A stretch of 64,000 nucleotides of DNA from Xylanimonas ulmi (GTDB taxonomy: Bacteria > Actinomycetota > Actinomycetes > Actinomycetales > Cellulomonadaceae): positions 2,232,001 through 2,296,000 of the forward strand of contig NZ_SGWX01000001.1 of assembly GCF_004216535.1 (NCBI RefSeq), in the 5' to 3' direction. Made by a program: the position numbers and the translations under genes. Shown here one piece after another: positions 44,263 through 46,027 of this stretch (position 1 is its first letter; every line of letters starts with the position of its first letter). The notes beneath the pieces are model-generated. The model did no database searches. It worked only from the letters and a program-made list of their open reading frames with translations, and was not told the origin of the DNA.

Positions 44263-44366
44263 GCCAAGGCCTCCTGTGGAGCGGTGGGGATGCTCCGCAT
44301 GATACAAGGTTTCATTGCTTCAGGCAACGGTCTATCAGGCAGAGGCCGCCGTCCATCAGACCTCGG

Positions 44367-44440
44367 TGCCCCCGCCGGGACTCGAACCCGGACTGTGCCG
44401 GGTTTAAGCCGGCTGCCTCTGCCAATTGGGCTACGGGGGC
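44367..44440 (-). tRNA. tRNA with UAA anticodon (nominally tRNA-Leu), short variable loop
   Basis: A 74-base cloverleaf on the minus strand. Acceptor stem GCCCCCG/CGGGGGC, 3-bp D stem GCC/GGC with loop CAATTGGCAGA, anticodon stem GCCGG/CCGGC with loop CTTAAAC, variable loop ACAGT, T stem CCGGG/CCCGG with loop TTCGAGT, discriminator A. The anticodon reads UAA (codon UUA, Leu). Leucine tRNAs normally have a long variable arm; this one has five bases, although the D arm looks leucine-like. CCA is not encoded (ACCG follows). The identity is therefore uncertain. It lies alone between an MFS gene and ndh. Confidence 0.85.
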
Positions 44441-44548: not shown

Positions 44549-46027
44549 TCACTTCGTCGCCGGCGACGACTCGACGACCTTGCCCTCGGCGGCGGTCTCG
44601 GCCGACGACTCGGCCTTCTGCTCGACCTTCGTCCCGGCGGGCGCCGGCGGCACGGCCGCCTTGCGGAACTCGTCGCGCGGGTCGTGCACCGAGCCGAGCG
44701 AGATGATCTCGCGGCCCATCAGGAACTGGCCGATCCAGCCGATGACGATGCGGATCTTGCGGTTGCCCGTCGGCATCGCGAGCACGTGGTAGCTGCGGTG
44801 GGCCGCCCACGCGAGGAAGCCGCGCAGCTTGAGGAAGCCGAACAGCTCCGCGACGCCCTTGTACAGGCCGAGCGAGGCGACCACGCCGACGCTCTTGTGC
44901 GCGTACTCCTCGACCTGCTTGCCCGCGCGCTTGGCGGCGATGTTGTCGGCCAGGCGCTTGGCCTCGCGGATCGCGTGCTGGGCGTTGGGCGGGCAGAACT
45001 TGCCCGGGTTGAGCACGTCGGGCACCGCGGCGCAGTCACCGGCCGACCACGCGTCGGGGACAACCTCGCCGTCCTCGGTGGCGACCTGGAGCGTCGGGAG
45101 CACGATGACGCGGCCGAGCCTGTCGATCGGCAGGTCGGAGGCCTCCTTGAGCACCGGGTTGGCCTTGACGCCTGCGGTCCACACGATCGTGTCGGAGTCG
45201 AACTCCACACCCGTCGACGTCGTGACGTGACCGTCGACGCACGAGTTGAGGAACGTGTTGAGGTGGAACTCGATGCCCCGCTTCTTCATCTCCTCCAGAG
45301 CCCACTCGCCCATCGGCTCGGAGACCTCGGGCAGGATGCGGCCGGAGCCCTCGATCATGACGAAGCGCAGGTCCGAGGGGTCGATCGTCGCGTAGTTGCG
45401 CGTCGCGTACCGGGCCATGTCCTCGATCTCGGCGATCGCCTCGACGCCCGCGAAGCCGCCACCGATGAACGTGAACGTCAGCATGCGCTTGCGCAGGTCC
45501 GCGTCCCACGTCGAGGACGCGACGTCCATGCGGTTGAGCACGTGGTTGCGGACGGCGATGGCCTCTTCGACGTTCTTGAAGCCGATCGCCGTCTCGGCCA
45601 GGCCCGGGATGGGCAGCGTGCGCGAGACCGAGCCGAGGCCGACGACGAGCTCGTCGTAGGTGACCTCATACGACTCGCCCGCCTCGGGCTGGATGGTGAC
45701 GCGCTTGTCGCCGTGGTCGATCGCGGTGACCTTGCCCTGCAGCACGTCGACGCCCTTGAGCGCCCAGCGGTGCGGCGCGACGACGTCGCGGGCCTCGATC
45801 GAGCCCGCACCCGCCTCGGGCAGGAACGGCGCGTAGGTCATGTACGGACGGGGGTCGACGACGACGATCGCAGCGTCGCTCTTCTTGAGCTTCTTGCGCA
45901 GGCGCCGGGCCACGTAGAGCCCGACGGACCCGCCGCCGAGCACCACAATGCGCGGCACCTTACGGGGTCGGGCGGACCCGGTCGCCTTCTGGGCAGGGGT
46001 GACCGAGGTCAGGTCGTTCTGAGGCAT
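44549..46027 (-). CDS. ndh: Type II NADH dehydrogenase (NDH-2)
   Basis: 492 residues. Two Rossmann folds: the FAD site VPRIVVLGGGSVGLYVARRL near residues 24-43, and the NADH site LTFTFIGGGFAGVEAIAEIEDMA. DRLGRVIVLPTLQ and AWSAGDCAAVPD give the second FAD contact, and PPNAQHAIREAKRLADNIAAKRAGK is typical of NDH-2. A C-terminal amphipathic region (KLRGFLAWAAHRSYHVLAMPT) would bind the membrane. The enzyme passes electrons from NADH to menaquinone without pumping protons. The start codon seems to be also the transcription start, with a DosR-like box just upstream. Confidence 0.94.
   Translation of the reverse strand: MPQNDLTSVTPAQKATGSARPRKVPRIVVLGGGSVGLYVARRLRKKLKKSDAAIVVVDPRPYMTYAPFLPEAGAGSIEARDVVAPHRWALKGVDVLQGKVTAIDHGDKRVTIQPEAGESYEVTYDELVVGLGSVSRTLPIPGLAETAIGFKNVEEAIAVRNHVLNRMDVASSTWDADLRKRMLTFTFIGGGFAGVEAIAEIEDMARYATRNYATIDPSDLRFVMIEGSGRILPEVSEPMGEWALEEMKKRGIEFHLNTFLNSCVDGHVTTSTGVEFDSDTIVWTAGVKANPVLKEASDLPIDRLGRVIVLPTLQVATEDGEVVPDAWSAGDCAAVPDVLNPGKFCPPNAQHAIREAKRLADNIAAKRAGKQVEEYAHKSVGVVASLGLYKGVAELFGFLKLRGFLAWAAHRSYHVLAMPTGNRKIRIVIGWIGQFLMGREIISLGSVHDPRDEFRKAAVPPAPAGTKVEQKAESSAETAAEGKVVESSPATK

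Follow-up and report, generated by a model that had tools for sequence, protein, structure and literature searches.

A class I-shaped tRNA-Leu(UAA) in Xylanimonas ulmi and its long-armed, bldA-type counterparts in Actinomycetota

The window analyzed here is the whole 64,000-nt stretch of Xylanimonas ulmi DNA. On its minus strand a short tRNA gene with a UAA anticodon follows an ndh-2-type NADH dehydrogenase gene in the same orientation, at a distance of about 110 bases (Table 1). ARAGORN called a tRNA-Leu(taa) at window positions 44365-44440 (minus strand), and the Rfam model RF00005 matched 44440-44367 over its full length as a cloverleaf with 58.9 bits (gathering score 29, E 3.6e-10), which places the RNA in that family above the curated threshold. 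The original prediction, made from the letters alone, described a 74-base cloverleaf with a UAA anticodon loop and a 5-nt variable loop, which ARAGORN and RF00005 (58.9 bits) confirmed; its leucine-like D arm of a 3-bp stem and an 11-nt loop and the absence of an encoded CCA are likewise as described in the sequence. The D arm contains A14, A15, G18G19 and A20a and a C13.A22 mismatch. With 5 nt in the variable region, the tRNA falls outside class II, for which a variable arm of at least 10 nt is expected.

Table 1. Features of the tRNA locus in window coordinates. The RNA reads, 5' to 3', GCCCCCG-UA-GCC-CAAUUGGCAGA-GGC-A-GCCGG-CUUAAAC-CCGGC-ACAGU-CCGGG-UUCGAGU-CCCGG-CGGGGGC-A.
Feature	Position	Strand	Evidence
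Class I-shaped tRNA-Leu(UAA), 74 nt without CCA	44367..44440	-	ARAGORN, sequence, RF00005 58.9 bits
Acceptor stem, 5' half, GCCCCCG	44434..44440	-	Sequence; acceptor cells 97.6% paired in 115 relatives
U8 A9	44432..44433	-	Among short leucine tRNAs 91% have A9; among long ones 98% have G9
D arm GCC-CAAUUGGCAGA-GGC, leucine-type 3-bp stem and 11-nt loop	44415..44431	-	RF00005 fit, motif scan
Anticodon arm GCCGG-CUUAAAC-CCGGC	44397..44413	-	RF00005; 5/5 pairs compensated among relatives
Anticodon UAA	44404..44406	-	ARAGORN and sequence
Variable loop of 5 nt, ACAGU, replacing the long arm; U48 pairs with A15	44392..44396	-	Sequence
T arm	44375..44391	-	RF00005; 98.4% paired among relatives
Acceptor stem, 3' half, CGGGGGC	44368..44374	-	Sequence
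Discriminator A73, followed by CCG; CCA not encoded	44367..44367	-	Sequence
ndh-2-like NADH dehydrogenase (Pyr_redox_2), directly upstream of the tRNA	44549..46027	-	Locus comparison

The lowest-energy fold of the bare, unmodified sequence is a different GC-rich structure; what supports the cloverleaf is the family model together with comparison among relatives. Among 115 unique chromosomal homologues the acceptor stem is 97.6% paired, and 6 of its 7 pairs vary between at least two Watson-Crick types; the corresponding values are 99.1% and 5 of 5 for the anticodon stem and 98.4% and 4 of 5 for the T stem. Taken together, 15 of the 17 pairs in these three helices show at least two Watson-Crick types. 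The D stem is invariant, and over all helices pairing ranges from 97.6 to 100%. Helices that are paired and compensated to this degree support a cloverleaf beyond chance. A consensus promoter was not found for the tRNA, which is a weak test in a GC-rich genome, and alignment of upstream regions revealed no common promoter.

The complete 3.97-Mb genome gave 50 tRNA matches. The leucine tRNAs with anticodons CAA, CAG, GAG and UAG are 82-86 nt long and all long-armed, and no long-armed UAA tRNA was detected in the complete genome. The short tRNA thus provides the sole anticodon matching UUA. It had been suggested that it might be a second UUA decoder and that a class II tRNA-Leu(UAA) should be sought elsewhere; the search returned none beside the four long-armed tRNAs with other leucine anticodons, and the element is the only UAA-anticodon tRNA of the genome. 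The codon is as rare as anticipated: one TTA was counted in 55,216 codons of conserved stretches (0.018 per thousand; GC 72.8%), which makes UUA the rarest leucine codon. This rarity, together with the fact that the Streptomyces tRNA with the UAA anticodon is bldA (PMC4932002), could point to a regulatory tRNA of the bldA kind, which decodes UUA but mainly serves to gate a few UUA-containing genes. AT-richer relatives use UUA routinely, however, and regulation does not follow from the short shape; we consider a mainly regulatory role unlikely.

Next, we examined how widely the short form is distributed. A blastn match was found in 57 of 59 related genomes, and the best 29 non-self loci are all short UAA tRNAs. 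In the order, the short-form pattern matched 229 of 297 genomes, which represent 76 of 91 genera, with one copy per matched genome, and the long-form pattern matched 15 genomes of the same set; decay in relatives, named in advance as a refuting observation, is contradicted by conservation in 76 of the 91 sampled genera. In a sample of 318 genomes of the phylum, 66 contain the short form and 147 the long, bldA-type form, and comparison of the two lists by hand found no genome with both. Both patterns are strict, and 105 of the 318 genomes matched neither. Among families of the order missed by both patterns, sampled loci of f17 mostly have the short form with a 6-nt loop, and those of f14 a long form with a divergent D loop. 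The 147 long-form genomes include a family of 6-10 Mb genomes with a Streptomyces bldA-type sequence; family labels are anonymous in this set, and the taxon names attached to them (e.g., Streptomyces for f21) are inferred, partly from sequence. In a named collection the short UAA form is present in Mycobacterium, Nocardia, Gordonia, Rhodococcus, Corynebacterium, Saccharopolyspora and many Micrococcales, and further in Acidimicrobiia and some Cyanobacteria. In much of the actinobacteria the short form is the rule, and it is also frequent among phages, whose records annotate it as plain tRNA-Leu.

Several other unusual tRNA genes were noted. A UAA tRNA of family f17 (L133; G098, g63) has an unusual D arm, its variable region is about 9 nt long, and it is perhaps intermediate between short and long. 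Genome G170 carries two extra AT-rich long tRNA-Leu(UAA) genes on contig C10 (L125, L126, L138, L146), one of them beside a tRNA-Cys, in addition to its native long form (L152). Short-form tRNA-Leu(CAA) genes are found in Gordonia, Corynebacterium and Amycolatopsis genome contigs (L308, L312, L320, L331, L364 and others). Several genomes of one genus (f3 g43; L111, L113-L116) encode a tRNA-Ile(UAU) of 93-94 nt with an apparent long variable arm, adjoining a long tRNA-Leu(UAA), a mirror image of the short-leucine case. Bacterial tRNA-Tyr is normally long-armed; in Mycobacterium phage Porcelain a 73-nt tRNA of class I shape with anticodon GUA is annotated as tRNA-Tyr (L492, 1498-1570).

The ndh-2 locus relates the two forms. 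Directly downstream of ndh-2 we found 42 short-form loci, the element included, and four long-form loci (three in f14 and one in f6); in a genome of another family of the class (G503) the long-form gene is likewise downstream of ndh-2. Short and long forms behind the same gene are positional counterparts. Two Streptomyces-type bldA loci that were examined are not beside ndh-2. In family f34, nine short and three long UAA tRNAs lie behind one and the same set of upstream genes, and both forms share the acceptor stem GGGGGCG/CGCCCCU and the T stem GUGGG/CCCAC. Two genera of this family (g164 and g216) each have one species with the short and one with the long form. In a tree of the neighboring proteins the three long-form loci of f34 do not group together: one (G402) is inside an otherwise short-form clade with 93% support, and another (G491) pairs with a short-form species with 84% support. 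Through the ndh-2 locus and f34, the short tRNA shares orthologous position and descent with the bldA type, and the common locus together with the f34 acceptor and T arms indicates a genuine tRNA-Leu(UAA) whose structural class changed in situ. Repeated switching in place between short and long, in whichever direction, is well supported by these sequence comparisons. Removal of the hairpin from the long variable arm GUCCUGAGAAGGAGU leaves a loop of the observed NNAGU type, and loss or gain of the arm is coupled to changes in the core: G9 versus A9, GCG/CGC versus GCC/GGC in the D stem, and, at 13.22, G/A.A versus C.A.

The same loci bear on whether the gene is mobile or phage-derived and recently replaced a native one. 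Short tRNAs with leucine anticodons occur frequently in viral contigs and in named phages, and in genome G226 such genes stand in a tRNA array next to the long form native to that genome (L144/L148). Against this, the element and 41 other loci are directly downstream of ndh-2 across families, their vertical flanks speak against a recent event, and a repeat of the tRNA 3' end of the kind left at integration sites was not found within the 64-kb window. The f34 tRNAs also keep their acceptor and T arms through the switch, unlike a whole-gene replacement. A recent acquisition is therefore very unlikely. The G226 genes, an exception found elsewhere to the mutual exclusion observed in the phylum sample, are part of a dense, phage-like array on contig C4 (L144, L128) with short leucine tRNAs of anticodons UAA, UAG and CAA, alongside the long chromosomal gene; the CAA tRNA of this array apparently has C33.

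The amino acid was addressed by three independent lines of evidence: identity elements, the anticodons that accompany the D-arm motif, and codon meaning. In E. coli the leucine determinants are A73, A15-U48, G18G19 and A20a; neither leucine identity nor leucylation depends on the long arm (PMC9976931). The element retains every one of these determinants readable in its sequence, A73, A15-U48, G18G19 and A20a, a set defined in E. coli. In 337 unique short leucine tRNAs, 90% of which have a 5-nt variable loop, A73 is present in 99%, A15 in 99% and U48 in 98%, as is likewise the case in 48 long ones; the full leucine signature occurs in 0 of 897 tRNAs of other isotypes. One scan pattern for the short form admitted only leucine or phenylalanine anticodons, so the specificity of the D arm rests on a scan of viral contigs for the motif AGCCCAAYYGGYAGAGGC with the anticodon unconstrained. 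That scan returned TAG 46, TAA 43, CAA 26, CAG 5, GAG 4 and AAG 2 times, i.e., 126 cases with leucine anticodons, plus one chance match that is not a tRNA. Phage "tRNA-Tyr" blast matches were considered as a counter-example to leucine specificity and set aside, their D arm being of the ordinary GCUC...GAGC type. As to codon meaning, TTA is too rare in the X. ulmi genome for a test (one informative aligned cell, which is Leu), and the reading of UUA as leucine rests on a relative with 49% GC (G125) in which the short form is the only UAA tRNA detected. With TTA masked as X, 335 of 608 aligned cells in G125 are Leu (55%), followed by Val at 14%; TTG and CTA gave 62% and 63% Leu, and TTA behaves much like TTG, CTA and CTT. 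We concluded that the amino acid is leucine.

These results also decide against a tRNA of another amino acid, for instance of Asn or Arg type, that acquired a UAA anticodon and left UUA reassigned or ambiguous, as the original prediction had allowed. An Asn D arm is similar in sequence (GCUCAAUUGGCAGAGC, L080), and the Arg(UCU) tRNA of a relative (L078) has an identical acceptor stem. UUA nevertheless aligns to leucine in G125, the D-arm motif is combined with six leucine anticodons and no other, none of the 897 other-isotype tRNAs has the full leucine signature, and in f34 the locus, acceptor stem and T arm match those of the long tRNA-Leu(UAA); a foreign isotype is highly improbable. Of the first reading, the UAA anticodon, class I shape, leucine-like D arm and rare codon stand, and the premise that leucine tRNAs need a long variable arm does not, since the arm is not required for leucine identity in E. 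coli (PMC9976931). A non-functional relic is hardly credible: TTA is nearly absent from conserved genes of the genome and no promoter match was found, but the helices are compensated, 25 of 74 positions are at least 98% invariant among the 115 unique homologues, and the gene is the sole decoder of a sense codon.

The best explanation, to which we assign a probability of about 0.93, is that the element is the only tRNA-Leu(UAA) of X. ulmi, an orthologue of the bldA type rebuilt with a 5-nt loop, which would be charged by LeuRS and read UUA as leucine. The long variable arm would have been replaced by the short loop and the core rebuilt alongside, with A9, C12-G23, C13.A22 and a loop tail of AGU or GUU, and leucine identity would be carried by the retained A73, the A15-U48 Levitt pair and the G18G19/A20a D loop. 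Every genome that was tested encodes a single full bacterial LeuRS, and a dedicated second LeuRS was looked for in these genomes and not found; the same enzyme presumably serves both tRNA shapes. Given the retained determinants, we propose that the single ordinary LeuRS charges the short tRNA as well as the four long-armed leucine tRNAs. Leucylation by this enzyme, expression, and decoding of the rare UUA on the ribosome in X. ulmi are predicted from sequence, and the structure, the conservation, the status as sole decoder, the orthology with the long form and the meaning of UUA in the relative are observed.

Species that combine both shapes with a single LeuRS offer natural experiments on the features this enzyme reads, and the f34 pairs illustrate how a tRNA changes structural class at a fixed locus with its codon kept. 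Arm-length rules for isotype assignment could mislabel short leucine genes, and the compact short form might be a basis for engineering leucine or orthogonal tRNAs. In a broader and quite doubtful reading, the two shapes would be interchangeable leucine tRNA classes that switch in place repeatedly and at the level of genera, with variable arm, position 9 and D stem changing together, and thereby escape agents that sense the long arm. The switching itself is supported by the comparisons above; the reason for the switch is speculation, as is the nature of such agents, which might be tRNA-targeting toxins or phage defences; if true, escape would fit with the short type being common in phages.

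By amino-acid identity and descent the element is a tRNA-Leu, and by structure it is not class II. A 2023 review describes leucine tRNAs as long-armed everywhere save in animal mitochondria, a universal rule that is wrong for a large part of Actinomycetota, mycobacteria included; the long-looped leucine tRNAs named in M. tuberculosis are tRNA-Leu-2, 3 and 5 (PMC11541572). No description of the short type as widespread was found in the literature searched, which lies mostly outside subscription journals; we call it unrecognised in this sense, and tRNA databases must hold these genes. The closest known system is the bldA-type class II tRNA-Leu(UAA), which shares the anticodon, the leucine determinants, the locus in several families and the f34 acceptor and T arms, but has an arm of 9-18 nt where the element has a 5-nt loop, and G9, GCG/CGC or GUG/CAC and G/A13.A22 where the element has A9, GCC/GGC and C13.A22. 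In a tRNA cluster of the Mycobacterium mucogenicum clade, an extra tRNA-Leu(UAG) with a short variable loop is found beside the normal long isoacceptor (PMC6582537). That case was reported as a single additional gene of the cluster, whereas the type described here is chromosomal, is the only UUA decoder of its genomes across families, has a core signature that could be defined, and is linked to the long form by the loci compared above. Animal mitochondrial tRNA-Leu also lacks the long arm and is charged by LeuRS (PMC9976931), as the element is expected to be, but it has a weak anticodon branch, whereas the bacterial cloverleaf of the element is complete and stable, and the remaining leucine tRNAs of its genome carry long arms. 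Allo-tRNAs and other non-canonical natural bacterial tRNAs are similarly unusual and some have leucine anticodons, but their acceptor and T stems are 8/4 or 9/3 (PMC7609411), in contrast to the canonical 7/5 of the element.
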